Assembly: GCF_011764585.1 (NCBI RefSeq)
Contig: NZ_AP022853.1
Location: 1,533,501-1,597,500 of the forward strand
Source of the DNA: Sulfurimicrobium lacus
Lineage (GTDB): Bacteria; Pseudomonadota; Gammaproteobacteria; Burkholderiales; Sulfuricellaceae
Direction of reading: 5' to 3'
DNA length: 64,000 nucleotides
A model generated the notes under the pieces. The model ran no database searches and was not told the origin of the DNA. It saw only the letters and a list, made by a program, of their open reading frames with translations. Shown here piece by piece: positions 1-25,314 of the stretch. Numbering within the stretch: position 1 is the stretch's first letter; each line of letters starts with the position of its first letter. A program made the translations under genes and the position numbers.

Positions 1-1
1 C

Positions 2-142
2 CGCCATGAGAAAGACTTTCCGGTGATTCGGTCGGTAATGGAAAACGCTGTCGGCCGGGAGGTGCCCTGCCTGTACCTGTTGGCGGATATCTGCCGCAGC
101 GAGCTGCTGCTGGAAATCGAGGCGATCGCGGGGGAAGCATGA
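2..142 (+). CDS. C-terminal end of a chorismatase-like protein (XanB2/FkbO/Hyg5 type), cut by window edge
   Basis: Only the last 46 codons are in the window, so no start is visible. The reading frame is open from base 2 to a TGA at 140-142. The tail contains YLLADICRSELLLEIEA, which resembles the end of chorismatases of the FkbO/Hyg5/XanB2 family, whose RidA-like C-terminal half usually finishes with a DICR-x-(E/D)LL-x-EI(E/D) segment. Those enzymes convert chorismate to hydroxybenzoates, and XanB2 supplies the aromatic starter for xanthomonadin. The match is from memory on a short fragment. The neighbouring aryl-polyene genes make the role plausible. Confidence 0.55.
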   Translation, partial: RHEKDFPVIRSVMENAVGREVPCLYLLADICRSELLLEIEAIAGEA

Positions 143-213
143 ACTGCCGCTTTGGGTCGCTGGGCTCGTGAGTCGGCAAGTCCTCCTCCCCCCAAAAAAA
201 GAAAGAAACTTCC

Positions 214-762
214 ATGCCTGAAACGCTCATTCTCTCCATGGGTTCCATTGCCTTGCTCTATATCTCGCGGGGGGCGTTGAGCAATCCGAACTCGCATGGC
301 TTTTACCGGTTTTTTGCCTGGGAGGCCATTTTGGGCCTGGATGCGCTCAACTTTTCAGTTGAGACGGCTAATCCCTGGGCCCCTGATCAGCTGCTTTCTA
401 CCTTCATGCGTGTGACTTCTCTGGTGCTGGCCATTCATGCCTTGATTCTGCTGATCAAAATCGGCAAACCAATGCGAGAGCGGGTGGATAGAGCATTGCT
501 CGGCTTTGAAAAAACCTCGTCATTGGTGATGATCGGTGCGTTCAAGTACATTCGCCACCCGATGTACGCCTCCTTGCTTTTCTTTGCCTGGGGCGAGTTT
601 CTCAAGCAGGTTTCCTGGCTAGGCGTTTTCCTGGTGCTGGTGGCGAGTGTTTTTCTGTGGCTGACGGCCAAAAGGGATGAAGAGGAATGCCTGACGCATT
701 TTGGCTCCGAATATCAGTGCTATATGCGGAAGACCAAACGCTTCATCCCATTCTTGCTTTAA
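214..762 (+). CDS. Membrane methyltransferase of the isoprenylcysteine carboxyl methyltransferase (ICMT/PEMT) fold
   Basis: A 182-residue integral membrane protein with about four hydrophobic segments. It carries the family signature: RHPMYAS at residues 114-120 and a C-terminal cluster with acidic residues 155-158, FG at 163-164 and TKRFIP near 174-179, which form the SAM-binding end in ICMT-type enzymes. The natural substrate cannot be read from sequence; bacterial members methylate diverse O, N or S groups. It lies 71 bases after the chorismatase-like gene on the same strand and next to aryl-polyene genes, so a role in O-methylation of the pigment is possible but only inferred. Confidence 0.8.
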   Translation: MPETLILSMGSIALLYISRGALSNPNSHGFYRFFAWEAILGLDALNFSVETANPWAPDQLLSTFMRVTSLVLAIHALILLIKIGKPMRERVDRALLGFEKTSSLVMIGAFKYIRHPMYASLLFFAWGEFLKQVSWLGVFLVLVASVFLWLTAKRDEEECLTHFGSEYQCYMRKTKRFIPFLL

Positions 763-793
763 CAGGCGTGCCGTCTTCGATGGTTAAAATCCA

Positions 794-1513
794 TCAGGCC
801 ATGGCGCCGTTGATCGAAATCACCTGGCCGGAGATGTAGGCAGCCTTGTCCGAGGCCAGGAAGCTCACTAGGTCGGCCACTTCCTCGGGATGGCCGGCGC
901 GTTTCATCGGCACCAGGCTATTGATGGTTTCCGGCGGAAAGGCATCCTCGATCATCGGGCTCAAAATGATGCCGGGGGCGATGGCGTTGACCGTGACGTT
1001 GCGCGACGCGACTTCCTGCGCCAGCGACTTGGTGGCGCCGATCAGGCCGGCCTTGGCGGCGGCATAGTTGGCCTGGCCGCGGTTGCCCATCACGCCGGCG
1101 ATCGAGGCCATGTTGACGATGCGTCCCCAGCGCGTGCGCAGCATGGGCAGCAGCAGGGGCTGGGTGACGTTGAAGAAGCCGTTGAGCGAGACGTCGATCA
1201 CGCTGTGCCACTGCTCCTGGCTCATGCCGGCGAGGATACCGTCGCGGTGGATGCCCGCGTTGTTGACCAGCACCTGTATCGGACCGTCCTGCAGCAATAT
1301 TTCAACGGCCACGGCGCTGGCGGCGGCGTCGGCTACGTCGAAGCACACCGCCTCGGCGCTGCCGCCCGCGGTGCGGATTTCCTCCGCCAGGGCCTGCGCG
1401 GTTTCGAGGCGCGAGTTGGCGTGAACGACGACGTGCAAGCCGTCCGCCGCCAGCGCCCGGCAAACCGCCGCGCCGATGGCGCCGCTGCCGCCGGTGACCA
1501 GTGCGCGCTTCAT
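794..1513 (-). CDS. 3-oxoacyl-ACP reductase (FabG-like), aryl-polyene ketoreductase
   Basis: A 239-residue short-chain dehydrogenase that would reduce the 3-keto group of the growing polyene with NADPH. Visible motifs are the Rossmann glycine run TGGSGAIG (residues 7-14), NNAG (84-87), and catalytic N111, S137, Y150 and K154. The start ATG at 1513 overlaps the dehydratase stop in an ATGA junction, which favours it over longer upstream openings in the same frame. It is the last of four coupled genes (ketosynthase, chain-length factor, dehydratase, reductase), the usual core of aryl-polyene clusters. Generic fatty-acid FabG is less likely given this context. Confidence 0.9.
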   Translation of the reverse strand: MKRALVTGGSGAIGAAVCRALAADGLHVVVHANSRLETAQALAEEIRTAGGSAEAVCFDVADAAASAVAVEILLQDGPIQVLVNNAGIHRDGILAGMSQEQWHSVIDVSLNGFFNVTQPLLLPMLRTRWGRIVNMASIAGVMGNRGQANYAAAKAGLIGATKSLAQEVASRNVTVNAIAPGIILSPMIEDAFPPETINSLVPMKRAGHPEEVADLVSFLASDKAAYISGQVISINGAMA

Positions 1514-1950
1514 GCTGCATCCCCTTTCTGTAAAAACACCGCCGCGCGGCCCGTCATCAGCTCGCGCCCGGCGGCGCAAACGCGCAGTTCGTAGAGCGAG
1601 TGGTTGGCGTCGGCCAGCTGCTTGACGGCCTCGATCTCCAGCGCCTCGGGAATGTCGTCCAGGCGCTCGGCAAACAGCCGCACGTCGCGCACGCTGCCGA
1701 TGAAGCCGATCCGGGGCTTGGCTCCGCTCTGCGCCGCCAGACCGCCATGTACCGCCATCGCCTGGGCGGCGTATTCGATGGCGCAATGCGCGGGCAACTG
1801 GCCGTTGTGGCGCAGCGGATTGGCCGGGTCGTTGTGGTTGATGGCGCGGCAGGCGATGCGCTCTGCGTCCCATGCAGTCACTTCGTGCAGCAGGCACATG
1901 GCGTCGGTGTGGGGGAGCAGCTGGCACAATTGTTCTTTGGCGATGTTCAT
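1510..1950 (-). CDS. Hotdog-fold 3-hydroxyacyl-ACP dehydratase of the aryl-polyene (ApeP-like) type
   Basis: A 146-residue single hotdog protein. The N-terminal LLPHTDAMCLL (His14) and the central helix segment with IEYAAQAMAVHGG (Glu59 region) match the dehydratase family found in aryl-polyene clusters, which removes water from 3-hydroxyacyl-ACP to build conjugated double bonds. It overlaps the ketoreductase start by four bases and follows the chain-length-factor gene after a two-base gap, so translation is probably coupled. It differs clearly from the second, FabZ/ApeI-like dehydratase at about 21.4 kb. Paired dehydratases are normal in aryl-polyene loci. Confidence 0.85.
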   Translation of the reverse strand: MNIAKEQLCQLLPHTDAMCLLHEVTAWDAERIACRAINHNDPANPLRHNGQLPAHCAIEYAAQAMAVHGGLAAQSGAKPRIGFIGSVRDVRLFAERLDDIPEALEIEAVKQLADANHSLYELRVCAAGRELMTGRAAVFLQKGDAA

Positions 1951-1952
1951 TT

Positions 1953-2795
1953 TCAGGCTTTTTCTACTTCGATGACCAGGCTGTTGGCGCCGTAATTCAG
2001 GCTGAGGCGGCGTCCCTGTTCTTTGGCCCCCTCCCCCGCAAGCGGGGGAGGGTTGGGGAGGGGGGAGCCGGTGCCGCGAGCGATGGCCTGCAACAAAGGC
2101 AGGGCGCGGGCGGCGGGGTTGCCCTTGCGCAAGGCTTCGAGTTCCGCGCTACCCATGGCTGTGTCCGCCTGTTCGTCGCACAGGCTGATCTGCAGGCGTG
2201 CCAGGGATGTTTCCGTGGCTTGCGGCGTCAGCAGCAGCGCGGCGGCGAAGGGCGCAGTGATGGTGCGCGCCTCGTTGAGCGGCGCGGGAAAAGGCAGGTC
2301 GAAAGCCACCAGCAGCACCGGGATGTTTTCCGCCGCCACCTGCACGGCGGCTTCCAGCAGGCCGGCAGCGAAAGAGGCGTCGAACGCGGCCAGGCTGTTG
2401 GCGCCGGTGCGCGCCCCGGTGGCGATGTTCCAGTAGCCCGCCGCGGCGTTGTGCACCGAGTTGTGGAAGCGCGTGGGCGAGACTTCGTGTTCGGCCTGGG
2501 CAAGGGATTCCAGGATGTGGTGGAGGTTCTCGCCGTCGGCGTCGGAAGAGGCGAACACCACGGCCGCCTGCGTGGGCGGGAAGTTGGCCTGCGTCATGGC
2601 TTCCTGCGCCACTTGCAGGGCGATGCGCGTGGCCGGCCCGCTGCGGCGCCGTTCCGCCGGGGGCAGAATGGTCGCCGCTGGTTTGGGATGTTCGCCATCG
2701 AACGGCGCTTCGCCGCGCAGCACGGCGCGCCCGCTCGCCCAGTCCGCCATGCCGGGGCCGCACAGGCCGATGCTCGCTACATGGACGGCGATCAT
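1953..2795 (-). CDS. Beta-ketoacyl synthase-like chain length factor (aryl-polyene CLF)
   Basis: A 280-residue protein of the ketoacyl-synthase-like chain-length-factor family. It follows the thiolase-like fold but lacks the Cys-His-His set: the position of the active cysteine reads AAFDASFAAG. It should therefore be a non-catalytic partner that dimerises with the downstream-numbered ketosynthase and limits polyene length. ATG 2795 overlaps the ketosynthase stop by four bases. Near the C terminus the segment SPLPNPPPLAGEGAK is encoded by a GC-rich palindromic repeat inserted in frame; related peptides occur in the ketosynthase and PPTase of this window. Confidence 0.85.
   Translation of the reverse strand: MIAVHVASIGLCGPGMADWASGRAVLRGEAPFDGEHPKPAATILPPAERRRSGPATRIALQVAQEAMTQANFPPTQAAVVFASSDADGENLHHILESLAQAEHEVSPTRFHNSVHNAAAGYWNIATGARTGANSLAAFDASFAAGLLEAAVQVAAENIPVLLVAFDLPFPAPLNEARTITAPFAAALLLTPQATETSLARLQISLCDEQADTAMGSAELEALRKGNPAARALPLLQAIARGTGSPLPNPPPLAGEGAKEQGRRLSLNYGANSLVIEVEKA
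2027..2065. repeat. Composite palindromic repeat, copy 1, in frame inside the chain-length-factor gene
   Basis: An imperfect palindrome built on CTCCCCCGCAAGCGGGGGAG with purine-rich and pyrimidine-rich flanks. It keeps the reading frame of the host gene and encodes a Pro/Gly-rich peptide near its C terminus. Confidence 0.8.
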
Positions 2796-4015
2796 GGCTG
2801 CGCTCCGAAAATCAGGCTGCAATTGTTGCCGCCGAAACCGAACGAATTGCTCATGACCCGGCGCAGGGGACGCGAGACCGCCTGCAACTGGATCGCGCAG
2901 CCGAGTTCCGGGTCGAGCGTGCGGGTAGTGCAGGAGCCGGGGGTAAACCCGTTTTCCAGGCAGATGCAGGAGATGGCCGCTTCCACCGCGCCCGCCGCGC
3001 CCAGCGTGTGGCCGGTCGCGCCCTTGGTGGAACTGCACGGCGTATTCGTGCCGAACACGCGCTGCATGCCCTGGTCTTCCGCGGCGTCGTTGCTGCGGCT
3101 GGAGGTGCCGTGCATGTTGATGTAGTCGATCTCTCCCGGTTGCAAGCGCGCGGCGGCCAAGGCCTGCTCCATCGCCAGCGCCGCGCCCAGCCCCTCGGGG
3201 TGGGGAGTGGACATGTGGTAGGCATCGCTACTCTCGCCGTAACCCAGCAGCGCCAGCGGGCCGGCTCCGTTCGCCCCCTCGCCCGCAAGCGGGAGAGGGC
3301 TGGGGAGAGGGGAATTTTCCAACAAAAAGAATCCCGCGCCCTCGCCGATGGAAATGCCTTTACGGTCCCGGTCGCACGGACGGCAGGGCTCGGGCGAAAC
3401 CAGTTGCAGCGAGTTGAAACCGTACAGCGTCATGGCGCACAGGGAATCCACCCCGCCCACCACCGCCGCGTCGCACAAACCGGTCTGCATGAGCCGCGCC
3501 GCGCTGGCGAAGACCTTGGCGCTGGACGAGCAGGCCGTGGAGATGACGAAAGCCGGGCCGCTCAGACCGAGATACTGGCGCACGAAATCGGCCACGGAAC
3601 CCATGCTTTGCGTGCCGGCGAAATGGAAATCCGCCGGCAGCGCGCCGCTCTCCGGATCGCGGTGGCGGTAGGCGTGCTCCGTTGCCTGGATGCCCGAGGT
3701 GCTGGTGCCGAGGATCACGGCGATACGCCGCGCGCCGTATTTCGCGCGCGCCGTCTCGATTGCGGACGCGAAACCGTCCTGCTCCAGCGCCAGTTGCGCC
3801 AGGCGGTTGTTGCGGCAGTCGAAATACTCAAGCGACGGGGGCAGGGCGATGTCTTCCACGCCGTCCACGCGGCCGATGAAGGTGTCCAACTGGGCATCGG
3901 CGAAATCGTTGGCGCGCAGGCCGCTGCGGCCTTGCAGCAGGGCGGAAAGCGTCGCGTCCTTGCCGTGGCCGAGCGCGCTGGTGAGAGTGTAGTGGGTAAC
4001 GAACAAGGGGGTCAT
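2792..4015 (-). CDS. Beta-ketoacyl-ACP synthase (aryl-polyene ketosynthase)
   Basis: A 407-residue condensing enzyme that would extend the aryl starter with malonyl-ACP units. The catalytic set is complete: Cys162 in STACSSS, His302 in MHGTSS and His336 in KGATGHTLGAAG. The C-terminal FGFGGNN is also present. Residues 235-249 (SPLPSPLPLAGEGAN) are encoded by a palindromic repeat inserted between the first and second half of the thiolase fold, where a surface loop would be expected. It is the first gene of the block KS-CLF-DH-KR. In most aryl-polyene loci the ketosynthase follows the exporter, which here lies 13.6 kb away. Confidence 0.9.
   Translation of the reverse strand: MTPLFVTHYTLTSALGHGKDATLSALLQGRSGLRANDFADAQLDTFIGRVDGVEDIALPPSLEYFDCRNNRLAQLALEQDGFASAIETARAKYGARRIAVILGTSTSGIQATEHAYRHRDPESGALPADFHFAGTQSMGSVADFVRQYLGLSGPAFVISTACSSSAKVFASAARLMQTGLCDAAVVGGVDSLCAMTLYGFNSLQLVSPEPCRPCDRDRKGISIGEGAGFFLLENSPLPSPLPLAGEGANGAGPLALLGYGESSDAYHMSTPHPEGLGAALAMEQALAAARLQPGEIDYINMHGTSSRSNDAAEDQGMQRVFGTNTPCSSTKGATGHTLGAAGAVEAAISCICLENGFTPGSCTTRTLDPELGCAIQLQAVSRPLRRVMSNSFGFGGNNCSLIFGAQP
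3274..3312. repeat. Composite palindromic repeat, copy 2, in frame inside the ketosynthase gene
   Basis: Same palindrome core as copy 1 (CTCGCCCGCAAGCGGGAGAG) with a GGCTGGGGAGAGG right flank. It adds about 15 residues (235-249) to the ketosynthase without breaking the frame. Confidence 0.8.
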
Positions 4016-4055
4016 GGTTTTAATTGAATTGAAAGCAGCGTTTTTATACCGTTGT

Positions 4056-4400
4056 TCAACTTGTTTGTGCTTTGAATTTCAGAAGTTCCACCAACAAGCC
4101 GGGAATGTCGTCCCTAATGATGCTCCAAAGCGTATCGTTATCAATGCCCAGATAGCCATGGATCAGGCGGTTGCGGGTTGCGATGATCTGCCTCCACGGT
4201 ATCGCAGGGCAGGCATCCCGCTGTTCGGATGGGATGTGCGTCGCGGCCTCGCCGAGCAATTCCAGGTTGCGCACGGTCGCGTCATAGTTAAGGCCGCTGG
4301 CGACAAATGCTTGCTGGTCGAGCCCTTCGGTATAAGCGAGCACCTTCTCGGCAAAATCGATCATGTCGTCGAGGTAAAAGTGCCACTCGCGCTCAGACAT
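4056..4400 (-). CDS. hepT: HepT-like toxin (DUF86, HEPN superfamily)
   Basis: A 114-residue helical protein with the HEPN R-x4-6-H-x-Y motif as RNRLIHGY near residue 80. It belongs to the HepT toxins of HepT-MntA (type VII) toxin-antitoxin pairs, in which the MntA nucleotidyltransferase blocks the HEPN RNase by polyadenylylating the motif tyrosine. Its start overlaps the MntA stop by eight bases, and the antitoxin comes first in the transcript. It is the first of several TA-like modules that follow the pigment block. The pair assignment is strong; activity in this host is inferred. Confidence 0.88.
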   Translation of the reverse strand: MSEREWHFYLDDMIDFAEKVLAYTEGLDQQAFVASGLNYDATVRNLELLGEAATHIPSEQRDACPAIPWRQIIATRNRLIHGYLGIDNDTLWSIIRDDIPGLLVELLKFKAQTS

Positions 4401-4683
4401 TGATCATCTCCCGTTCGATGAAGGGGCGCAGTTCGGAGCGCAGCGCTTTTTCGGTCACCAAGTCCACCGGGCACTGCAACAAATCTTCCAGGTAGAACTG
4501 GACGCCGAAGTAGCGTTTGGAGGTGGCCGCCCCGTTGAATGCCACGAGCACATCCACATCGCTATCCTCGCGGGCGGCATCGCGCACCGTGGAGCCGAAC
4601 AGGGCCAGGCGGGTCACACCGAACTGTTCGGCCAACTGCGCCTTGTGCTGGGCGAGTAGCTGCAATGCTCTGCTGCGATTCAT
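4393..4683 (-). CDS. mntA: MntA-like minimal nucleotidyltransferase antitoxin
   Basis: A small nucleotidyltransferase of 96 residues with the exact GS-x10-D-x-D catalytic signature (GSTVRDAAREDSDVD) and a downstream hydrophobic strand. I chose ATG 4683 because a GGAG ribosome site lies six bases before it. The ATG at 4695 would add four residues but has no such site. It would AMPylate the HepT partner encoded directly downstream with an eight-base overlap. Stand-alone KNTase function is the alternative, but the HepT neighbour argues for the TA role. Confidence 0.87.
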   Translation of the reverse strand: MNRSRALQLLAQHKAQLAEQFGVTRLALFGSTVRDAAREDSDVDVLVAFNGAATSKRYFGVQFYLEDLLQCPVDLVTEKALRSELRPFIEREMINV

Positions 4684-4905
4684 GAATAACTCCATTCGCG
4701 ATGAATCAATGGGTCAGACTCGATTGATATTAAAAACGAAAGAACTGCCCAGGGTCTGTTCTCACATTCCAACATGTTTAGGGCAGCAAGCGGCAATAAA
4801 TTGTCGCTTGATGAGTGTGTTGCGCGCAACGCTATTTGTGGCAGTTCCTCATCCCATGAACACGAACGGCAATAGATCGCGCTTGAGATGGGGGGCGACC
4901 CGCAC
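4684..4905. other. Intergenic stretch without a convincing gene
   Basis: It separates the HepT-MntA pair from the DUF2442/DUF4160 pair. A short minus-strand reading frame crosses it, but it lacks a ribosome site and reads like translated non-coding DNA. A small inverted motif (CAAGCGGCAATAAATTGTCGCTTG) is visible near 4790-4813. It may be a remnant of a mobile element. I see no domain or promoter I can defend. Confidence 0.4.
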
Positions 4906-5187
4906 TCAAGCCACGGCTTCAAGTGATGCGGAGTGCTCAATCTGGTTGCGGTACAAGTCGATCACAGGAAAGCACAGATCGTAGTCGCCCCAAACCAATT
5001 CGCCGTATTCGAGGCGAAACGTCGCAAAACGGGCCGGATCGAGCCATGCGCGAATATCAGGGTGAAGGGCATGCGTGAGAAAAGGTTTGAAGTCCACGGT
5101 CTGCTCGGTGCGGTCGTCGAATTCCAGGCGGATACGGAAGTCTCCAACCTGTTCGGCAGTGATGATGTTGATGGCAGTTGGTGTCAT
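4906..5187 (-). CDS. DUF2442 family protein
   Basis: A 93-residue protein with the DUF2442 pattern: an N-terminal strand pair ending FRIRLEFDDRTEQTVDF, then LDPARFATFRLEYGELVWG and a C-terminal LYRNQ segment. The function of the family is unknown. It overlaps the DUF4160 gene by four bases (stop/start ATGA), a pairing seen repeatedly in bacterial genomes and often suspected to be an addiction or regulatory module. No catalytic residues can be named. It follows HepT-MntA and precedes VapBC-like genes on the same strand. Confidence 0.8.
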   Translation of the reverse strand: MTPTAINIITAEQVGDFRIRLEFDDRTEQTVDFKPFLTHALHPDIRAWLDPARFATFRLEYGELVWGDYDLCFPVIDLYRNQIEHSASLEAVA

Positions 5188-5489
5188 TTGAGTCTCCTCG
5201 TAATGCGCTCTGGTGTGATGTGCTTATGCAACACAAAAAAGTCAATCCACTTGGCGATGATGTCGTCCGCGCGTGCTCGGGTGATTTCCTCAAAGTAGTG
5301 CATTTCATTGAGGTGGAGAGGCGCACGGCCCCCAACCGCGGTGTAACGAATTTCCGAGACTACGCCGTTAATCACGATGATTTCGGCTCGGGATTCACGA
5401 TCCTGAATCTTGCCATGCACATGGACCGGCTCATGTTCGTTGGCATAGAACATGATGATTAGTCCGAAATATTCGTAAAGTTTAGGCAT
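5184..5489 (-). CDS. DUF4160 family protein
   Basis: A 101-residue protein with the DUF4160 hallmark EHEPVHVHGK near residue 20, in which several histidines and acidic residues cluster, followed by EIIVINGVV and a helical tail. The biochemical role of the family is not established. It is the upstream member of the DUF4160-DUF2442 pair and probably shares one transcript with it. The pair sits among toxin-antitoxin genes. Which partner, if either, is toxic cannot be told from sequence. Confidence 0.8.
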   Translation of the reverse strand: MPKLYEYFGLIIMFYANEHEPVHVHGKIQDRESRAEIIVINGVVSEIRYTAVGGRAPLHLNEMHYFEEITRARADDIIAKWIDFFVLHKHITPERITRRLK

Positions 5490-5837
5490 GGCTCCGGCCG
5501 TTAAGCAATAAATGATAGTGCACTTTGGAGGAGTGTGCTCCGCGCCACGCTGTTTGCTTGCCGGGGGCAGCCCGGCGGCTGGTTACCTTTCTTGCTTCGC
5601 CAAGAAAGGTAACCCAAAGAAGGCGACCCCCATCCACCGCCCCTTCGGGGTTCCCTGCGCTGCTCGTTAAGCCGGGCGGCTGCGCAACTCGCGCTGCGCG
5701 CTCAGACATTGCTCGCCGACTGCCCCCGGCTTGCCTGCGCTGCTCGGCGGTGGACCGAGGGGATTCTGTCGCGGTGTGGCCTGCCGATGCTCCGATCTGG
5801 CAGGATTTTACCGCGCCTTGTACCTGAACCGGCATGG
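5490..5837. repeat. Intergenic repeat-like region with GGTTACCTTTCTT palindrome
   Basis: About 350 bases without a credible gene. It contains a long inverted repeat, GGTTACCTTTCTTG and CAAGAAAGGTAACC around a short loop (about 5581-5612), plus GCCGGGGGCAGCCCGGCGGC and its counterpart CGACTGCCCCCGGCTTG (about 5717-5733). Short open frames here look like translated repeat. Similar sequence is, to my knowledge, common between genes of betaproteobacteria. It may be a degenerate non-autonomous element. Confidence 0.6.
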
Positions 5838-6260
5838 TTACAGCGCCCAAGGATTATAGACTTGCGGGTACAACGCAAAATCCTGCACGTTGCGGGTGAC
5901 TACGGTGAATCCGTGGCATTGGGCGGTGGCCATGAGCAGGCCGTCCATCACCGGCAGGGGTTGTCCGGCCAATTCCGAGTGTGCGGCGATTTGCGCCCAG
6001 ACATGAAGCGCGGCGGTGTCGAGCGGCAGGATGCGCCCGGCGAAGCGCTGCTCCACCTTGCCCAGCCAGGCTGTAAGTTTCTGGCTGCGGCTCGGGTCGC
6101 TGGCGCGCAGCTTGAGGATGCCTTTTTCGATCTCCCCCAGGGTAATCACGCTGATGAACAGGCTGGCTTCGTCCTGCTCGTCGAGCCAGGAAATCACTTT
6201 CCGCGCGGGAGCTTTCCTGGCGTATTCGGAAAGCGTGCAGGTATCCAGCAGCCAGCTCAT
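5838..6260 (-). CDS. VapC-type PIN-domain ribonuclease toxin
   Basis: A 140-residue PIN protein. The acidic active-site set is visible: Asp6 in WLLDTC, Glu43 in TLGEIEKG, Asp106 in VMDGLLMATA and Asp127 after TRN. VapC toxins are Mg-dependent RNases, often cutting tRNA or rRNA. The ATG at 6260 overlaps the antitoxin stop by four bases and explains the pair; a longer frame upstream of it is the antitoxin region in another phase. FitB-like PIN proteins are a close alternative, and the family call itself is firm. Confidence 0.9.
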   Translation of the reverse strand: MSWLLDTCTLSEYARKAPARKVISWLDEQDEASLFISVITLGEIEKGILKLRASDPSRSQKLTAWLGKVEQRFAGRILPLDTAALHVWAQIAAHSELAGQPLPVMDGLLMATAQCHGFTVVTRNVQDFALYPQVYNPWAL

Positions 6261-16812: not shown

Positions 16813-16868
16813 AAAGGTTTTTCCGGATTGTGGCGGACGCACCCCGCTGAAGTCGGCGCAATGACCGA

Positions 16869-17596: not shown

Positions 17597-19918
17597 TTAG
17601 CGCCCGGATTCCGCCCACATCGCCGCAAACACCAGGGACAAAACCGCGCCAAGCGCCACCGTACCGCCGATCGCCTGCAGCACCGGGGAGGCGGAGAACG
17701 CCAGGGCGCCGAAAGCGCTGACCGTGCTGGCCACGCACACCAGGGTGGAAAACAGGGCGCGCCGCCGTTCCTTTTCGTCGGATGCGGGCAGGTTGATGAA
17801 CAGGCCGTAGTTGAGGCCGATGCCCAGCACCAGCAGCAGCGAAACGACGTGGAACAGCGACAGTTTGATACCCAGCAAGGCCAGCAAGGCCGTGGTGCCG
17901 AGGATGGCCGCGCTGACCGGGAGCATCACCGAGAACACCGCGCGGAAATTGCGCAGGCCGAAGCCCAGCACCGCGACGATGGCCGCCACGCCGAAGATCG
18001 AGTACAGCAGCGACTGGTCGCGGTACTGCGTGATCATTTTGTTGGATTCGCCCTTGATGTCCAGCAGGAAAGCATTTCCATCGTGTAGCCCGGTCATGAA
18101 AGTGGCGAGTTCGGCGTCGCTCTTGACCCCGCGCAGCGAAATCAGCGCTACCCAGCCCGTGCCGTGCTTGACCAGCATGCCTTGCGCCAGCGAGCCCAGG
18201 GGGGTGCCGTGCCAGACTTCGGGTTGCAGCAGGGGCAGATGGCGGGAGCGCTCGACATCATGCAAAAAAGGTTCGAAGACATCGGGCTTGAACGGCGTTG
18301 CCGCGAGCGCGGCTTGCAGGTTGCGCCTCAGTGTCTCCTGATCGGGCAAAGCGGCCTGGCGTGCGGCCTGGACTTTCTGGCTGGGAATCACGCGCGCCGC
18401 GAGGTCGAATCCGCTAATGACGCCTTGCCGCACCAGCGTTTGCAGTGTGGGCGCGAGCTGTTCGCTGCGCTCGAGGGCAGCCTGCTGGTCGCTGCCCTGC
18501 ACGGCGATCAGGTAGCGCACGTCCGGTGCGCCCAGTTCGTCGCGCAGGCTTTGATCGAGGTGTTCCATGTCCAGGCCCTTTTGTGAAACCGGGCTCAGGT
18601 TGGCGAGGTCGTTTTCCCACAGGTTTTTTCCCTGCACCGCCAGGTAGACGGCGGCGCACAGCAGCACGGCCAGAGGCGCCCAGCGGAGCCGGGTCAGCGC
18701 CGTCGCAGAGCGCGCCAGAACGGCCTGCGTTGCGGTTCTTTCCGCGACTTCGAGGCGGGCCGGGGCGATTTCGGGAATGACGAAGCGCGTCATCAGCCCA
18801 GCCGTGAGAACGCCCGCAAGGGAAAACATGCCCAGTTGCGACAGTCCGGAAAAGCCGGAGAGCAGCATGGTGAGGCTGCCGAACACGGTGGTCAGCACCG
18901 CCAGGCGCAGCGTGGGCCAGATGCGCTGCAGCGTTTGGCGCAGGGATTCGTGGGGCGCGCGCTGGGTGAACAGGTAGGTCGGATAGTCCACCGCCTCGCC
19001 GATCAGGGTGACGCCGAAGCCCATGGTGATGCCGTGGACCGTGCCGTAACCCAGGCTGACCGCGGTCAGGCCAGCCAGCGCGCCGCTCGCCACCGGCAGC
19101 ATGCCGAGCACCAGCAGGCGCGGCGAGCCGTAGGCAACGAGCAGGATCACTGCAACCAGGGCGGTGGCGATCATGCTCAGGCGCCACGCGTCGTCGTGGA
19201 TGCGGTTGCGCGACTCCACGGCGAAAATGCTCGGCCCGCTCATGAGCAGCTTAATCTCCGGACTGGTACGGGTCGTTGCAAAAATCCGCCGCACGTCATC
19301 ACCGACTTTTTGCTGTGCGTCGATGTCGAAGGCCGGTGCTTTGGTTTCGGCCAGCAGCAGCGCGCGCTTGCCGTCCGCCGAGAACCACACCCCGTTGTTT
19401 ACCCCCGGTCCGCTGCCCGTGCCGCCCCAGCTTTCCAGCAGAGCGAGCATTTCGCCTGTGGGGTCGGAAGGAAGCAGTTGCTTGATCATGGCGCCGGCCG
19501 GCGAGGCCAGCAGCTGCAGGCTGTCCTGCAGGGACTGTTGCAGCCCGCCCGCGCTGAAATGCGCCGCATCCGTCGCGGGGCTGAGGAGGTAGCGGTAGCG
19601 CATCAGCCGCTCGCGCTCCACCGGGGTGAGGGCCTGTTCGCCGCTGCGCACATAGCTGAAATGGCCGCTGGCCTCCAGCGCGCGCGCCAGTTTTTTGCTG
19701 GTCTCGGCAAGTTGCCTAGCTTCCGCGCCTTCCAGCGCAAACATGACAATGCGCGAGGTCACCCCGTCGCGCAGTTGCTCGACCATGAGTTGCTGTGCCG
19801 GCGAGGCGCTGTCGGGCAGGAAGGCCGCCATGTCGGTGTTGATGCGGGTATGCGCCGCCACGATCCAGATGCAGAAGGCCAACCCCGCGAGCCAGATGGC
19901 GACCGGCCAGCGCTTCAC
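17597..19918 (-). CDS. MMPL/RND-family exporter of the aryl-polyene locus
   Basis: 773 residues. The start is GTG 19918, within a GTGA overlap with the LolA-like gene and after a GAGGAAA ribosome site. Longer openings upstream are out-of-frame LolA sequence. An N-terminal helix (about 5-25) is followed by a large periplasmic loop, five or six helices, a second loop and a second helix bundle, the usual two-fold RND layout. This class occurs in aryl-polyene clusters and is thought to move the polyene lipid to the outer membrane with the LolA-like partner. In many clusters the ketosynthase genes follow directly; here they are 13.6 kb away. Confidence 0.88.
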   Translation of the reverse strand: MKRWPVAIWLAGLAFCIWIVAAHTRINTDMAAFLPDSASPAQQLMVEQLRDGVTSRIVMFALEGAEARQLAETSKKLARALEASGHFSYVRSGEQALTPVERERLMRYRYLLSPATDAAHFSAGGLQQSLQDSLQLLASPAGAMIKQLLPSDPTGEMLALLESWGGTGSGPGVNNGVWFSADGKRALLLAETKAPAFDIDAQQKVGDDVRRIFATTRTSPEIKLLMSGPSIFAVESRNRIHDDAWRLSMIATALVAVILLVAYGSPRLLVLGMLPVASGALAGLTAVSLGYGTVHGITMGFGVTLIGEAVDYPTYLFTQRAPHESLRQTLQRIWPTLRLAVLTTVFGSLTMLLSGFSGLSQLGMFSLAGVLTAGLMTRFVIPEIAPARLEVAERTATQAVLARSATALTRLRWAPLAVLLCAAVYLAVQGKNLWENDLANLSPVSQKGLDMEHLDQSLRDELGAPDVRYLIAVQGSDQQAALERSEQLAPTLQTLVRQGVISGFDLAARVIPSQKVQAARQAALPDQETLRRNLQAALAATPFKPDVFEPFLHDVERSRHLPLLQPEVWHGTPLGSLAQGMLVKHGTGWVALISLRGVKSDAELATFMTGLHDGNAFLLDIKGESNKMITQYRDQSLLYSIFGVAAIVAVLGFGLRNFRAVFSVMLPVSAAILGTTALLALLGIKLSLFHVVSLLLVLGIGLNYGLFINLPASDEKERRRALFSTLVCVASTVSAFGALAFSASPVLQAIGGTVALGAVLSLVFAAMWAESGR

Positions 19919-20517
19919 TTCGTTTCCTCGCTCAGGGTCATCAGGGTACGGTCGCCGCCGGCTTCCTCGATTTCCACTGTCGCCAGCTGCGTCTTGCTGC
20001 CGCCGATGCGTATCACGCGGATGAACTGCGCCATGTCGATGTCCGAAGGCAGCAGCACCAGGCTCCATTGCCGCTCGTCGCCGTCGAGGCGCACTTTGTA
20101 AAAGCGCTGCAGGGTTTTGGCGTCGCCGTTGAGGGTGGCGCGCATGCTTTCGATGAACCCCCACACCACGGGGAAATCGCGCAGCGCCATGGTGTGTTTT
20201 TTATGTGCAGCCGGTTTTTCCCAGGTCATGCGCTCGCCGTCCACGGTGAGAATTTCCTCGAACGGGGTTTGCACGTGCTTTTCCAGGAAGGCCGGTTTCT
20301 TGAAACGCAGCGTGCCGCTCGACTTGAGCGGCTCCTTGAGCAGGGCGGAGGTCTTGGTTTCGGTGTAGCGCGACTGGCCGGCGGGGCGCTCCGCCAGGGC
20401 CTTGAGCAAGGCATCGGCGGTCCATTCGGCATGGGCGACGCCGGCCCAGGCGAACAGGGCTAGCACGGCAAGCATGTGTTTCAGTCCGTGATTTGATGCA
20501 TTTAAAAAAGAACTCAT
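19915..20517 (-). CDS. LolA-like periplasmic lipid carrier of the aryl-polyene locus
   Basis: 200 residues starting at ATG 20517, which overlaps the acyltransferase stop by four bases. A signal peptide ending AGVAHA is followed by a LolA/LolB-like beta domain (SGTLRFKKPAFLEK, then ILTVDGERMTWEKP). It would shuttle the hydrophobic aryl-polyene product across the periplasm. It has no lipobox, so it should be soluble. The gene lies between acyltransferase and exporter, as in other aryl-polyene loci. The generic lipoprotein chaperone LolA is a less likely reading. Confidence 0.85.
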   Translation of the reverse strand: MSSFLNASNHGLKHMLAVLALFAWAGVAHAEWTADALLKALAERPAGQSRYTETKTSALLKEPLKSSGTLRFKKPAFLEKHVQTPFEEILTVDGERMTWEKPAAHKKHTMALRDFPVVWGFIESMRATLNGDAKTLQRFYKVRLDGDERQWSLVLLPSDIDMAQFIRVIRIGGSKTQLATVEIEEAGGDRTLMTLSEETK

Positions 20518-21416
20518 TCGGTCTGACCTGCCTGCCAATAATCATAGAAATTGAACCAGTTGTAGGGCGCGATGCGGCAATAGTGCTCGAGACGCGCGAC
20601 GTATTGCTGCAGATAGCCGTGAATGGCCTCGCGGCGACGCGCGCGCGGGGCATCGATGGTCTCGGCCAGCAGCTCGAAATGCACGTCGTAGTGGCGCTGA
20701 CCGCGATACAGGCCGAGGCACAGGAATATCGGTGCATGGGTGATGCTGGCGAAGGCCAGCGGGCCGTCCGGCAGGGCGGCGTCCTGACCGAAAAAGCGGC
20801 ACGGCAGCGTCTTGTCGCCCGGCCTGACGCGGTCGCTCAGCATGCCGACGATGCCGCCGGCGTCGATCACTTCCTTGGCGCGCAGCAGGCCGTCCGGCGA
20901 GCCCATGGCGATGATGGAGCCTGCCATTTCCGGGTTGAGGCTGTCGATGATGGCGTTCATCTTGTGCGCGTTGTCGGTGTGCATCAGCATGGCGAAAGGC
21001 ACCTTGCCGAACTCCACCGCCAGCGTGCGCAGCACTTCGAAGCTGCCGAGGTGCGCGCCCAGCAGGACGCAGCCTTGCCCGCGCCGCAGGCAGGCGAGCA
21101 GCGGCTCGACGCCGTGCACCTCGATGTCGAACAGGGTGTGGCGCCCGGAGAGGAAATACAGGCGGTCGAGAATGGTGGCGGAAAAGCAGAAATAGTGGCG
21201 GTACACATCGGCCCAACCGGGCTCGCGTGCCAGGGCGCGGCGCAGGTAGAGGCGCGAAGCCTGGCGCGCCTTGCCGGAGAACAGCAGGAAATACAGGCTG
21301 ATCGGCGCCAGCAGCAGGCGCGTTGCCGGGCGGCCGATGTTGAGCGCGATCCAGGTGATCAGGCGCATCAGCAGCAGGCTGCCGCGTTCCTGCTGTCCCA
21401 GCCAGTTGCGGCTCAT
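20514..21416 (-). CDS. Lysophospholipid acyltransferase-like (LPLAT, HtrB/LpxL superfamily) enzyme
   Basis: 300 residues with an N-terminal membrane helix and the LPLAT catalytic box HLGSFE (His122, Glu127) in VLLGAHLGSFEV. In aryl-polyene loci this enzyme is thought to transfer the polyene or a fatty acyl chain onto a membrane lipid head group. It overlaps the dehydratase stop by four bases upstream and the LolA-like gene by four bases downstream. The acceptor is not known from sequence. Confidence 0.87.
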   Translation of the reverse strand: MSRNWLGQQERGSLLLMRLITWIALNIGRPATRLLLAPISLYFLLFSGKARQASRLYLRRALAREPGWADVYRHYFCFSATILDRLYFLSGRHTLFDIEVHGVEPLLACLRRGQGCVLLGAHLGSFEVLRTLAVEFGKVPFAMLMHTDNAHKMNAIIDSLNPEMAGSIIAMGSPDGLLRAKEVIDAGGIVGMLSDRVRPGDKTLPCRFFGQDAALPDGPLAFASITHAPIFLCLGLYRGQRHYDVHFELLAETIDAPRARRREAIHGYLQQYVARLEHYCRIAPYNWFNFYDYWQAGQTE

Positions 21417-21724
21417 GTTTTCTCGCCGGAAAAACGCACGCTGCCTTGCGCGATGGTGCCCGCCGCCGTTCTGCAGACGAACTTGGCGGACTGCGCCGCG
21501 CCGAATTCAACGTCCACCCTGAACGGCACGCCGGGCAGCAGCGGCGCGAGGAATTTGACGCTGGGCCAGCCGGTGCAGTGCAGCGGTGTGCCCGCCTCGC
21601 GGCACACCGCGTCCCACACCTGGCTCAGCAGTACCACGCCCGGCACGATGGGGTTGCCGGGGAAATGGCCGGGCAGCGCCGGATGGTCTGCCGCAATGGT
21701 CTGCCACCGGGCTTGCTCAGGCAT
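21413..21724 (-). CDS. Second 3-hydroxyacyl-ACP dehydratase, FabZ/ApeI-like hotdog
   Basis: 103 residues, a minimal single hotdog. The motif HPALPGHFPGNPIVPGV (His14, His20) is the FabZ/ApeI-type active site. It would complement the ApeP-like dehydratase of block 1 in forming the conjugated chain. It overlaps the ligase gene by eight bases and the acyltransferase gene by four, so all are probably translated together. A thioesterase role is unlikely because the His-x-loop-PG pattern is that of dehydratases. Confidence 0.85.
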   Translation of the reverse strand: MPEQARWQTIAADHPALPGHFPGNPIVPGVVLLSQVWDAVCREAGTPLHCTGWPSVKFLAPLLPGVPFRVDVEFGAAQSAKFVCRTAAGTIAQGSVRFSGEKT

Positions 21725-23048
21725 GCTGCAGACTGCCGAGCAGGGCGATGAGGGTGTTGCGCGGCAGCTTGCCGGTGGCGCTGCGCGGCAGGCTGTCGAC
21801 CTTGTAGAGGGGACGGGGCAGAAATGCCGCGTCGATTTTTTGCCGCAGCGCGGCGATGATCTCGCTCTCCTGCAGCTCAGGTGCGACCACCAGGGCGATC
21901 AGGCGCGCCGCGGTGCCGGGGGTGTCGTCCGGGGCGAAAAAAATGCCGTCCCGCACGCCGGGAATCTGGCCGAGCTGGCGGTTGAGGTCGCCCAGGGACG
22001 CGCGTTTTCCGGCGATGTTGACCTGGTCAGCCGTGCGCCCCAGCAAGCGGAATCGCGTGCCGTCGGCGGCGGGTTCGATCACGTCCTGCAGCGGCGTGGG
22101 CGCGCTGACATGCCCGCCTGCTGCCCAGGCCTGGCCGTCGCCGTCGTTGCAGACGCTGACCCCCGTCACGGTTTGCCAGCCCTCGTCCTGCACCGTGCGG
22201 CGCGCGGCGATGGCGCCCGTTTCCGTGCAGCCGTAAACCTCCATAACCGGTGCGCCGTAGGCCTCTTCGGCGCGCTGCGCCATTTCCGGCGTGAGAGGCG
22301 CGGCGGCGGAAAGGGCCATGGCGATGGGGGGTAGGGCGATGTTTTGCTCCAGGCAGATGCGCAGGTGCAGCGGCGTGGTGACGAGTATGCGCGGCGCGGG
22401 CATTTCCCCCAGTGCCGCGGCGATATCCGCCGGAAACAGCGGCTGGCCGGCATGCAGCGTTCCGCCGCTGTGGAGCGGCAGCATCAGGGTGGATTCGAGG
22501 CCGTACATGTGCTGCGGCGGCACCGTGCCGAGGAAATGCAGTCCGGCTTCGATGCCGAGTATGTCGGCTTCCAGTTGCGCCTGTTTGACCAGCGATCCCC
22601 AGGTTTTGGGGTGGGGCTGCGGCTCGCCGGTGCTGCCCGAAGTGAAGGCGATGGCGGCGACGTGTCCGGCTGCGACGGCGGGTATGGCGAACGCCTTTTC
22701 GTCGGCCGGCTGCAAAGCGGGAAAGGGGATGATGTCCATTCCCTCCACCGCCAGGGCCTTGTCGCTCACGCCGTAAGACGCCGGATGGCAGGCGTGCAGC
22801 CGCGTCAGGGTGCCGGCCGCATGGTTGGGCGGCAGCAGGTTGGTCTGGCCGCGCAGCAGGGCGGCGCAGAAGGTGAGCAGGAAGTGGTAGCGGTCGGTGC
22901 ACAGGTTGAAGACGAAGGGGCGCTGCGGCAATTGCTCGGCCAGCTGTTCCACTTCGCGCAGAAAGCGGGAAGCGCTGATGGCCCGATCGTTGCGCCAGGC
23001 AATCGCTTGGGCTGGGCGGCTGTGCCTGAACAGGGGGAGTCGGTTCAT
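21717..23048 (-). CDS. AMP-dependent acyl/aryl-ACP ligase of the aryl-polyene locus
   Basis: 443 residues of the ANL superfamily, shorter than acyl-CoA synthetases (about 500-550). The P-loop reads FTSGSTGEPQPHPK, the adenylate motif VYGCTETG is present, and the catalytic lysine is in RSATGKLPR near the C terminus. It probably activates the hydroxybenzoate starter and loads it on the ACP encoded upstream. It follows the COG4648-type membrane gene after 15 bases. The starter identity rests on the chorismatase-like neighbour at the window edge. Confidence 0.85.
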   Translation of the reverse strand: MNRLPLFRHSRPAQAIAWRNDRAISASRFLREVEQLAEQLPQRPFVFNLCTDRYHFLLTFCAALLRGQTNLLPPNHAAGTLTRLHACHPASYGVSDKALAVEGMDIIPFPALQPADEKAFAIPAVAAGHVAAIAFTSGSTGEPQPHPKTWGSLVKQAQLEADILGIEAGLHFLGTVPPQHMYGLESTLMLPLHSGGTLHAGQPLFPADIAAALGEMPAPRILVTTPLHLRICLEQNIALPPIAMALSAAAPLTPEMAQRAEEAYGAPVMEVYGCTETGAIAARRTVQDEGWQTVTGVSVCNDGDGQAWAAGGHVSAPTPLQDVIEPAADGTRFRLLGRTADQVNIAGKRASLGDLNRQLGQIPGVRDGIFFAPDDTPGTAARLIALVVAPELQESEIIAALRQKIDAAFLPRPLYKVDSLPRSATGKLPRNTLIALLGSLQHA

Positions 23049-23063
23049 CGCGGTCCGGAACGC

Positions 23064-23534
23064 CTAGTCGCGCGGCATGCCGTGCAGCAGCATGAACAGC
23101 ATGAGCGACAGCGGGTTGCGGTGGGTATAGTGGCTGAAGCGGCGCTTGCGGAAAAAATATTCGCCGATCATCAGGCAGGGGACCAGTACCGGCGTCAAAG
23201 AGGCCGCTTGCGGGAAATGCGCATACTGCACCAGCAGCATGGTGAGGACCGCGCAGCCCAGCAGGAACCAAGCCCACACCGCCGTCAGGCTTCGCGTGTA
23301 GCCGACCATTTCGTCGGGAAAATCGCCATCGTGGTTGGCACGCGCGATGCGCGTGATCAGCGCTTCGCCCCGGAACAGGCTGCGCCCGAAGGCGGAAGCC
23401 ACCAGCAGGATGATCAGCACGGGCGGAAGCCAGGTCGCGAGCGCTTTCCACTCGGGGGGCGACAACTCGATGATTTTGGCGAACCCCCAGCCCAGCGCGA
23501 TGACCACGAGGATGCGCGAGACAAGACGCATCAC
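23064..23534 (-). CDS. Membrane protein of the COG4648 type found in aryl-polyene loci
   Basis: 156 residues with three or four membrane helices (about 5-20, 36-50, 88-106 and 116-126) and a basic linker (GEYFFRKRRFSHYTHRNP). Proteins like this are standard members of aryl-polyene clusters but have no assigned chemistry. The start is GTG 23534 or ATG 23531; both lie directly after the ACP stop, and neither has a strong ribosome site, so coupling to the ACP gene is likely. Confidence 0.8.
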   Translation of the reverse strand: MMRLVSRILVVIALGWGFAKIIELSPPEWKALATWLPPVLIILLVASAFGRSLFRGEALITRIARANHDGDFPDEMVGYTRSLTAVWAWFLLGCAVLTMLLVQYAHFPQAASLTPVLVPCLMIGEYFFRKRRFSHYTHRNPLSLMLFMLLHGMPRD

Positions 23535-23535
23535 G

Positions 23536-23805
23536 TTATTTCACGCGGTTCTTTTCGATGTGCCGCGCCAGGCTGCGCAGGGACGAGAAGGTGCTGGCAT
23601 TGTCCGGATCGTCGGCCTTGAGCTGAAAGCCGTATTTCTTGGAAACGGCGAGCGAGATTTCGAGCATGTCGATCGAATCCAGGCCCAGCCCGTCCTGATA
23701 GAGCGGCTGTTCCGCCTCGATTTCATCTGCTGCCATTTCAAGGTTGAGCGCCTCCACGATGAGGGCCGCGACTTCCTGCTCGAAGGGGGTGTTGTTGTCT
23801 GCCAT
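23536..23805 (-). CDS. Acyl carrier protein of the aryl-polyene locus
   Basis: 89 residues, acidic, four-helix ACP. The phosphopantetheine site is Ser44 in GLGLDSIDMLEI (DSI instead of DSL). It would carry the aryl starter or the growing polyene. Most aryl-polyene clusters have two ACP genes; only this one is in the window. A PPTase for its activation could be the Sfp-type enzyme at 52.3 kb, although that one is more closely tied to the NRPS. Confidence 0.9.
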   Translation of the reverse strand: MADNNTPFEQEVAALIVEALNLEMAADEIEAEQPLYQDGLGLDSIDMLEISLAVSKKYGFQLKADDPDNASTFSSLRSLARHIEKNRVK

Positions 23806-23881
23806 GGTGTGTCTTGGTGGTCTTAAAAATGAACGAAATTATACCATCAACGGCTAAGCGGATATCCGCATCAGGTTTTAC

Positions 23882-23967
23882 GTGAAACTCGCGTAGCGAG
23901 CCTGCGTCCCCCTCTCCCGCAAGCGGGGGAGGGCGGGGGTGGGGGAACGGTCATGGCGAGTTTCATG
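23882..23967. repeat. Composite palindromic repeat, copy 3, intergenic
   Basis: The most complete intergenic copy. TGAAACTCGCGTAGCGAGCC at the left and GGCGAGTTTCATG at the right form inverted ends around the CTCTCCCGCAAGCGGGGGAG core. 28 bases at 23883-23910 are identical, inverted, to 49704-49731 inside the NRPS gene. It lies between the halogenase-like gene and the ACP gene. Confidence 0.85.
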
Positions 23968-23988
23968 GTTCGGTTCGGGGTTGCACGT

Positions 23989-25314
23989 CTACCATGACTG
24001 TTCGAAGACTTCGGCACGGATCAGCCTGCGGCGCTGGTAATGGGCGCGAATGCTTTGCGGCAGCGTGGCCAGGCAGCGCATGTAGTAAATCAGCTTGAAC
24101 AGCCGCATCCGCGAGCGCGCCTGCGGGTTGTCGTGCACATCGCCGGCCAGGATGGCGATGACCGCCGACTCGACGCCGAAGATGTTGCGCGGGTTCATCA
24201 GCAGCTCGCGCATCACCGGCGTGGTCATGCGGAATATGAGCCAGGTGAAGCCTTTCAGCCCCTTGAGCACGTTTTTTTCGAAACGCTGCAAATGGCTCTG
24301 CATGCGCGCCGGGTCGCGCAGGCCGGCATCCACGGCCTCGGCGCCGAAGACCGCGCTCTTCATGGCGAGCAGCACGCCGGAAGAGAAGATCGGATCGACG
24401 AAGGCGAAGGCATCGCCCAGCATCAGGTAGCTGTCGCCGCTCATCTTGCTGGAAAGGTAGCTGTAGTTGCCGGTGGCGGTAACCGGCTTGGTCAGGGTGG
24501 CGTCCTTCATGCGCATGGCGAGCGGCGGGCAGGTGGCGACCGTGTCGTGGAAGAAAGTGTCGAGGTCGGTCTTGCGCGTCTTGAGGTAATACGGCCAGCA
24601 CACCATGCCCACGCTGGTGATGCCGTTCTGCAGCGGAATCAGCCAGAACCAGCCGTGGTCGAACCAGAACAGGGAGATGTTGCCCTCGTCCGTTCCGGGG
24701 AGACGCTCGACACCCTCGAAGTGGCCATAGATCGCCGCGCTGGCGTGTTTGGGGTGCGGCTGTTTGCTGGCGAAACGATTGGCGAGGAAGGTGTCGCGCC
24801 CCGAAGCGTCGATCAGGAAGCGCGCCTGCCAGCGGCCCTCGCCATCCTGGTTCCGGGTCGTGACGCGGACCGATTGCGGATCGCTGAAATCCACTGCGGT
24901 TACTTTGGTCTCTTCGTGAACCTGCGCGCCCTTGGCGCGGCAATTGTCGAGCAGGATCTGGTCGAGCTCGGCGCGGTGTACTTCGTAGGAAAAGGGATAG
25001 CGCTGGTTCATGGCCTGAGAGAAGTAGAACGACTGTTTCTTGCCGTGGTACATGGAATCGAATTGCGCCGCGTTCTTCACCATGCCGATGCGCGCCACCT
25101 CGTCCAGCACGCCGAGCTGTTCGAACAGGCCGTTGTTGACCGGCAGCAGCGATTCGCCGATGTGAAAGCGGGGGAACTTGTCTTTTTCGATGAGCACCAC
25201 CCGGTAGCCTTTCTGCGCCAGCAGGGTCGCGGCGGTGGAACCGGCGGGGCCGCCGCCGATGACCAGCACGTCGCAGGTTTGGACCGGGGAGGGTTGTTCG
25301 CTCATGTCGCTCAT
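23989..25314 (-). CDS. Flavin-dependent halogenase-like FAD oxidoreductase
   Basis: 441 residues with an N-terminal FAD fold (GGGPAGST, 20-27). It has both signatures used to recognise flavin-dependent halogenases: W-x-W-x-I-P as WFWLIP (222-227) and F-x-x-P-x-x-S-x-G as FVDPIFSSG (305-313). Lys80 in MVKNAAQF is a candidate for the catalytic lysine. KFPRFHIGES resembles phenol/pyrrole-type halogenases acting on carrier-bound substrates. Xanthomonadins are brominated aryl polyenes, so a halogenating role on the ring or chain fits. It overlaps the antiporter gene by four bases. A non-halogenating oxidoreductase of the same family remains possible. Confidence 0.75.
   Translation of the reverse strand: MSDMSEQPSPVQTCDVLVIGGGPAGSTAATLLAQKGYRVVLIEKDKFPRFHIGESLLPVNNGLFEQLGVLDEVARIGMVKNAAQFDSMYHGKKQSFYFSQAMNQRYPFSYEVHRAELDQILLDNCRAKGAQVHEETKVTAVDFSDPQSVRVTTRNQDGEGRWQARFLIDASGRDTFLANRFASKQPHPKHASAAIYGHFEGVERLPGTDEGNISLFWFDHGWFWLIPLQNGITSVGMVCWPYYLKTRKTDLDTFFHDTVATCPPLAMRMKDATLTKPVTATGNYSYLSSKMSGDSYLMLGDAFAFVDPIFSSGVLLAMKSAVFGAEAVDAGLRDPARMQSHLQRFEKNVLKGLKGFTWLIFRMTTPVMRELLMNPRNIFGVESAVIAILAGDVHDNPQARSRMRLFKLIYYMRCLATLPQSIRAHYQRRRLIRAEVFEQSW

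Follow-up and report, generated by a model that had tools for sequence, protein, structure and literature searches.

A secondarily interrupted aryl-polyene pigment locus, as probably found in Sulfurimicrobium lacus, and a recurrent toxin-antitoxin slot upstream of its ketosynthase gene

We analysed a window of 64,000 nucleotides (positions 1,533,501–1,597,500) of the 3.83 Mb single-contig genome of Sulfurimicrobium lacus (G000), which carries genes for an aryl-polyene pigment in two separated blocks. An earlier note, made from the sequence alone, had proposed that two blocks on the same strand (794–4015 and 17597–25314) together give nearly a whole aryl-polyene cluster. Profile searches against Pfam and NCBIfam, gene by gene for both blocks, yielded the following assignments, listed in the direction of the minus strand.

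25311–26576, minus strand: Na+/H+ exchanger of the ArcG kind (PF00999, E 4.8e-51, longer frame)
23989–25314, minus strand: flavin-dependent halogenase-like protein (PF04820, E 6.2e-28; GxGxxG and WxWxI motifs)
23536–23805, minus strand: acyl carrier protein, ACP (PF00550, E 5.5e-9; GLDS site)
23064–23531, minus strand: gene in the ApeG/COG4648 position, named by position
21717–23048, minus strand: AMP-dependent aryl-ACP/CoA ligase (PF00501, E 1.4e-22)
21413–21724, minus strand: dehydratase, ApeI position (PF07977, above cut-off)
20514–21416, minus strand: acyltransferase (PF03279, above cut-off)
19915–20475, minus strand: LolA-like carrier (PF19574, E 4.4e-20)
17597–19918, minus strand: MMPL/RND exporter, ApeM/ArcP position (PF03176)
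2792–4015, minus strand: ketosynthase, ApeO/ArcK type (NF006618, E 1.1e-166, above cut-off)
1953–2795, minus strand: chain-length-factor-like ketosynthase partner (PF13723, Ketoacyl-synt_2, E 1.4e-34)
1510–1950, minus strand: ApeP-like dehydratase (PF22817, above cut-off)
794–1513, minus strand: ketoreductase, FabG type, ApeQ/ArcH position (NF004200, E 3.6e-107)

The profiles confirm the proposal: both blocks lie on the minus strand in the xanthomonadin/arcuflavin order. The first runs from the antiporter to the exporter, with the ACP, the AMP-ligase, the acyltransferase, the LolA-like gene and the exporter in the order shared by relatives, and the second, from the ketosynthase and its partner to the ketoreductase, follows after 13,581 bp (exporter stop at 17597 to ketosynthase start at 4015), in agreement with the separation of about 13.6 kb given in the note. 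The genes of block 2 stand as the note had listed them, and the cluster has to be extended by the Na+/H+ exchanger gene, which overlaps the halogenase start; such an exchanger is a usual member of xanthomonadin/arcuflavin-type clusters, and an antiporter gene, arcG, belongs to the Azoarcus arc cluster (PMC3949708).

Cys162, His302, Lys331 and His336 of the ketosynthase are invariant in an alignment of 16 sequences, and the TACSS-type active-site Cys is absent from the chain-length-factor-like protein sequence (1953–2795). The name of the halogenase-like protein rests on PF04820 and on WxWxI, which we take to be a halogenase motif; no NCBIfam model scored above cut-off among the 25 listed of its 92 matches. 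The frame in the ApeG position (23064–23534), the sole gene of both blocks without a profile match, had none in either Pfam or NCBIfam. Each half is single-copy: the genome holds one ketosynthase of the aryl-polyene type, its other three matches (E 0.001) being just 32–36% identical, and one exporter match at E 1e-30. The locus also has one ACP, as the note had observed, the other two matches in the genome being weak (32% and 25% identical).

A palindromic repeat resembling repetitive extragenic palindromic (REP) elements, with the core CTTGCGGGNGAGGG, lies in frame in the chain-length-factor (2029–2042) and ketosynthase (3276–3289) genes. These copies add a PLPNPPPLAGEG-like stretch to the proteins, many aligned ketosynthases being without it. 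The core has five matches in the window, with one mismatch allowed, against 0.35 expected.

For comparison within the genus, we used eight genomes, S. lacus and seven congeners (four of the seven have at least 130 contigs, and G002 is 89% complete). The ketosynthase (E 1e-60) was found in seven of the eight, and the exporter (E 1e-30) in the same seven. In five of these seven (G001–G005) the halves are at most about 2.1 kb apart: exporter and ketosynthase share a contig at a distance of 0.65–0.8 kb in G001, G002, G003 and G005, and in G004 the end of the exporter gene opens the ketosynthase contig, about 2.1 kb away. Fused blocks in relatives, which the note had suggested looking for, are thus present. 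In G006 no ketosynthase occurs in the 15.9 kb from the exporter to the end of its contig; the gene is on a different contig, hence this is a further, separate split. The tree of the ketosynthase, MMPL exporter and acyltransferase separates G000, G004 and G006 from G001, G002, G003 and G005 with support of 100 on each side (single-gene support for the former group 84, 100 and 61; the open reading frames of L153–L155 have approximate start codons, and those of L154 and L155 entered the tree). Since the joined state occurs on both sides of the tree, the split is secondary. The exporter shows 70–86% amino acid identity in six congeners, and the FabG-type ketoreductase 88–93% in the five whose loci cover it. 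In the sister genus (G013, G014) the set is compact, with PAP2 and one further gene between exporter and ketosynthase; a gene similar to the latter is a polysaccharide deacetylase in L100.

Outside the genus, we considered the best 80 of 592 confirmed stretches, fetched with a flank of 10 kb. The ketosynthase, chain-length factor, MMPL exporter, ligase and FabG lie inside one stretch of at most about 21 kb in 48 of these 80 loci, and the ApeG-position gene has a similar sequence in nine. A same-strand exporter match is present upstream of the ketosynthase in 62 loci, at distances from 12 bp to 9.6 kb (median about 1.6 kb; above 5 kb in four). The 13.6 kb gap exceeds all 62, longer gaps being invisible here because of the 10 kb flank. 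The remaining 18 loci include short contigs and two with the exporter downstream. Ten of these 18 genomes, chosen for having no exporter near the ketosynthase, were searched genome-wide for both genes: in nine the exporter is remote from the ketosynthase, on a different contig or, in the genome of L107, 2.9 Mb off on the same contig, and the tenth gave no exporter match.

The comparison shows that the two halves belong to one system, which most of the genus keeps together. Two independent systems, with block 1 serving another polyketide or fatty-acid pathway and block 2 being an exporter cluster, might stand near each other by chance; the blocks are indeed 13.6 kb apart, and such blocks can sit on separate contigs. 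Against this, the genome has only one ketosynthase of the type, both blocks occur together in five congeners, and all five core genes are together in the 48 outside loci. With the halves joined in relatives, we rejected two unrelated systems as exceedingly improbable; neither two complete loci nor blocks of different systems, either of which the note had named as a refutation, were found.

The surprise at the separation of the exporter and ketosynthase genes, usually adjacent according to the note, is weaker than implied there, as the same cut is published for Azoarcus sp. BH72. The split itself is not new: the loci of BH72 are unlinked and both needed (PMC3949708), so that a split locus of this kind is already known and functional.

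The DNA between the exporter and the ketosynthase contains the following genes, listed from the ketosynthase outward.

4056–4400, minus strand: HepT toxin-like (PF01934, E 5.5e-25; RX4HXY at residue 76)
4393–4683, minus strand: MntA antitoxin-like (PF01909, E 2.8e-16, longer frame; GSX10DXD at residue 30)
4906–5489, minus strand: DUF2442/DUF4160 pair (DUF2442, E 2.1e-4, below the curated cut-off; DUF4160, E 2.5e-6, above it)
5838–6508, minus strand: PIN toxin-like and Phd/YefM antitoxin-like genes (PF01850 and PF02604, above cut-off)
6664–8046, plus strand: ppnN nucleotide nucleosidase, interrupting (PF11892 and PF14793, above cut-off)
9522–11327, minus strand: ABC exporter, interrupting (PF00664, PF00005)
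11482–12516, minus strand: NadM-Nudix (Pfam)
12706–14376, minus strand: NadE (Pfam)
14373–15584, minus strand: NAPRT (Pfam)
15760–16602, minus strand: isochorismatase-like, possible nicotinamidase (PF00857, E 2.1e-5, below cut-off)
16920–17567, plus strand: NrtR-type regulator (PF21906 NrtR_WHD, E 2.2e-22, plus NUDIX)

The Pfam matches bear out the contents read earlier from the open reading frames, namely toxin-antitoxin-like modules, ppnN, an ABC exporter and NAD salvage genes. At its two edges, the HepT-like gene stops 40 bp short of the ketosynthase start and the NrtR-type regulator 29 bp short of the exporter stop. What the insert consists of is a new element of this locus.

The adjacent PF01934 and PF01909 genes carry the RX4HXY and GSX10DXD motifs and would thus constitute a class I HepT/MntA module by the motif definitions of PMC7641770. 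PADLOC, run on eight proteins, returned candidate matches for MntA only (six PDC-S09 models and one weak PDC-M05A). The DUF2442/DUF4160 pair, which we take to be toxin-antitoxin-like, is suggested by its sequence distribution to be mobile. The pair is also present at another site in a congener (G007:C57) with 76–83% DNA identity, and DUF2442 alone stands beside MntA in G002 (90% identity). A repeat of about 230 bp (5534–5764) has many copies in the genome and in congeners, with up to 94% identity.

In proteobacteria, NrtR controls a regulon of NAD genes. NAPRT (E 1e-60) was found in only one of the eight genus genomes, that of S. lacus; of all 61 genomes searched, S. lacus included, 10 have it. 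The order NrtR, isochorismatase, NAPRT, NadE, NadM/Nudix recurs unchanged in G041, a genome of the same order, at 45–61% identity, the isochorismatase-like gene holds the same position in the cassette of L148, and NAPRT and NadE are side by side in G017, of the same family. The NAD-salvage cassette looks acquired. Among the matches listed for the insert DNA in the genus, ppnN is the longest (1.4 kb, 86%, G002), the rest being at most about 0.7 kb.

Two similar elements of the kind of miniature inverted-repeat transposable elements (12568–12697 and 15618–15760; about 130–143 bp) with matching inverted ends bracket NadE and NAPRT, and a third palindromic repeat (16674–16829) precedes NrtR. Partial matches to such repeat stretches recur in the genus.

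Toxin-antitoxin genes stand just upstream of the ketosynthase in six of the seven ketosynthase-bearing genus genomes. They represent at least three unrelated families (HepT/MntA, CcdAB and ParDE), all co-directional with the operon. The slot is occupied as follows.

G000: HepT/MntA
G001: MntA and an apparently interrupted HepT
G002: MntA and a DUF2442 gene (below the curated cut-off); no HepT
G003: CcdA/CcdB (the CcdB profile check was made in G005 only)
G005: CcdA/CcdB, with 2 bp from the end of CcdB to the ketosynthase start
G004: ParD/ParE
G006: divergent methyltransferase gene; no toxin-antitoxin gene in the 1 kb available

The recurrent slot is less expected than the split and is a new element here. 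We found no description of such a slot at an aryl-polyene locus in the openly accessible literature searched, which mostly excludes subscription journals; the nearest published case there is a pair with PilT and prevent-host-death domains (darH, darG) in the Azoarcus dar cluster (PMC3949708).

Outside the genus, the slot contains HigB in a Gallionella metagenome-assembled genome (L117); in L109 it contains a BrnT-like pair that scores below curated cut-offs and is encoded on the opposite strand. Fourteen of the 62 junctions are at most 103 bp long, and most others hold ordinary-looking co-directional genes; Pfam was applied to chosen proteins of 11 of the 48 loci with gaps above 200 bp, so that toxin-antitoxin genes elsewhere were possibly missed, and some of the slot frames scanned may be spurious, their lack of a match saying little. 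In another pigment locus (L120, 4127–9821) a set of VgrG, lipase-like and Tli4 immunity genes separates the exporter side from the ketosynthase. The density of toxin-antitoxin genes was estimated from ParE alone: seven of the eight genus genomes have 1–7 matches and G007 has 22, and one of the seven in G004 is the slot ParE.

The DNA identity between G000 and G001 is 88% for HepT and 91% for MntA, versus 75–79% for the ketosynthase, MMPL exporter and acyltransferase, and this excess suggests possible exchange at the slot. The sign is weak, because between G000 and G002 MntA has 80% identity, a value that matches the flanking genes and is expected from descent, and FabG reaches 85–90% in other pairs. 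The junction might be an insertion slot under selection, the modules stabilising the pigment operon or lending an autoregulated promoter to the ketosynthase half. The recurrence of co-directional families, the 2 bp distance of CcdB in G005 and the HepT/MntA identity would fit this. Nevertheless, MntA without HepT in G002 and the apparently interrupted HepT in G001 suit neutral turnover, G006 has no module in the available 1 kb, the short or ordinary-looking junctions outside the genus and the weakness of the identity sign argue against it, and shared ancestry reduces the number of independent events. We therefore regard selection on the slot as unlikely. A slot where modules replace one another, with the resident serving the operon by a penalty for loss or by an autoregulated promoter that lets the cut locus survive, seems a rather doubtful proposition.

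At the left end, the note had placed a chorismatase-like tail and a methyltransferase that would supply and decorate the aromatic head.

1–139, plus strand: 3' end of a XanB2-like chorismatase gene that starts left of the window (PF21168, E 2.3e-38)
214–762, plus strand: PEMT/ICMT-type methyltransferase, pathway membership uncertain (PF04191, E 6.2e-7; ICMT below cut-off)

The XanB2-like gene, of which the note saw the tail, is complete (G000:C1:1532626–1533639, 338 aa, plus strand, ending at window position 139), and PAP2, acyltransferase, glycosyltransferase and radical-SAM genes lie farther left. The putative link of the methyltransferase to the pigment is weakly supported: its relatives (about 45% identity) were found in two of 91 loci, between exporter and ketosynthase in L106 and near XanB2 in L089, and in none of the congener loci searched. 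A B12-binding radical-SAM protein (L035, 9953–11515) adjoins the glycosyltransferase; it has matches in four of the 80 loci, and its aligned part shares 80% identity with a protein encoded next to the Azonexus hydrophilus pigment genes (L104). Of the 80 outside loci, 31 have a match to the halogenase in the fetched stretch, 23 to XanB2, 17 to the antiporter and 19 to PAP2. Within the genus, the halogenase was found genome-wide in S. lacus only (E 1e-60, eight genomes) and the XanB2-like gene in S. lacus and G004 only (E 1e-20), hence the predicted tailoring set of this species is richer and more xanthomonadin-like than that of its congeners. By its presence in the sequence, the halogenase gene alone would not imply a halogenated product.

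Taken together, these genes very probably form one xanthomonadin/arcuflavin-type aryl-polyene pigment locus that was secondarily interrupted. Clusters of this type produce a yellow protective pigment. By the pathway known for the family, the XanB2-like chorismatase would supply hydroxybenzoate, which the AMP-ligase would load onto the ACP; the ketosynthase with its chain-length factor, the ketoreductase and the dehydratases would then build the polyene, acyltransferases would join it to lipid, and the LolA-like protein and the MMPL exporter would carry the product to the outer membrane, while the halogenase and methyltransferases may decorate the aromatic head. In this lineage, a block with the NrtR-type NAD-salvage cassette, ppnN, the ABC exporter and the toxin-antitoxin genes has come between exporter and ketosynthase. 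The pathway would still work, the ketosynthase half forming an operon of its own whose promoter might be located within or ahead of the MntA/HepT genes. In agreement with this, the reading frames of both halves are open, the ketosynthase catalytic residues are kept, and gene content and order agree with E. coli apeA-R (PMC8253772) and Azoarcus arc (PMC3949708).

Several observations weigh against this reading. In a scan of 3990–6600 we found one promoter-like site versus a shuffle mean of 1.1, and nine terminator-like sites (five on the operon strand) versus 3.1 (sd 2.1), hence read-through from the exporter side is unlikely; the local promoter, the expression and the pigment are predictions. 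The insert proteins scanned include no transposase or integrase, part of the inserted genes may be ancestral and have disappeared from the other genomes, and neither the halogenase (genome-wide) nor the antiporter (search limited to loci) was found in congeners. ApeN (DUF3261) gave no match in the eight genomes, which is uninformative, as 14 control genomes were equally without one. The insertion into a presumed operon, the lack of a promoter-like excess and the terminator-like sites would also be expected if the split had inactivated the pathway and both halves were decaying; given the open frames, the kept catalytic residues and the functional split cluster of Azoarcus BH72 (PMC3949708), we consider such decay improbable.

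Within a single genus the pigment operon is found intact, with a filled slot and interrupted, a natural series in which one can follow how clusters break up. The locus is also a warning that cluster-finding software may report a single pathway as two incomplete ones, and the toxin-antitoxin slot allows one to test whether such modules stabilise adjoining biosynthetic genes or regulate them.

The regulation of NAD genes by NrtR (PMC6800001) is matched here by an NrtR gene beside NAD genes, which, unlike there, are lodged inside a pigment locus. Among the described pigment systems, three come close. In Azoarcus sp. BH72 (PMC3949708), plasmid insertions in arcK or arcT each gave colourless mutants. 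One arc locus shares the ketosynthase, partial ketosynthase, dehydratase, reductase, Na/H antiporter, glycosyltransferase, acyltransferase, XanB2 and halogenase, and the other the methyltransferase, deacetylase, exporter, LolA, acyltransferase, dehydratase, AMP-ligase and one ACP. Since Table 1 of that report likewise lists one ACP, a single ACP is normal for the type, and we rejected it as an anomaly. The E. coli CFT073 cluster apeA-R (PMC8253772) shares the order ACP, COG4648, ligase, dehydratase, acyltransferase, LolA, RND, then ketosynthase, dehydratase, ketoreductase; it differs in having two ACPs, three ketosynthases, a thioesterase and ApeN between exporter and ketosynthase, and it is one continuous cluster, whose gene table lists neither a halogenase nor a chorismatase. 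The xanthomonadin-like cluster of Lysobacter enzymogenes (PMC3691225), in which the ketosynthase, ACP and ketoreductase are required, shares a type II ketosynthase with an unusual partner, two dehydratases and a LolA-like gene, but is described without a halogenase and as a single cluster, ORF1–17. The S. lacus locus is cut at the same junction as arc, the exporter side versus the ketosynthase; the arc halves are unlinked, whereas 13.6 kb of DNA with identifiable genes separates those of S. lacus.

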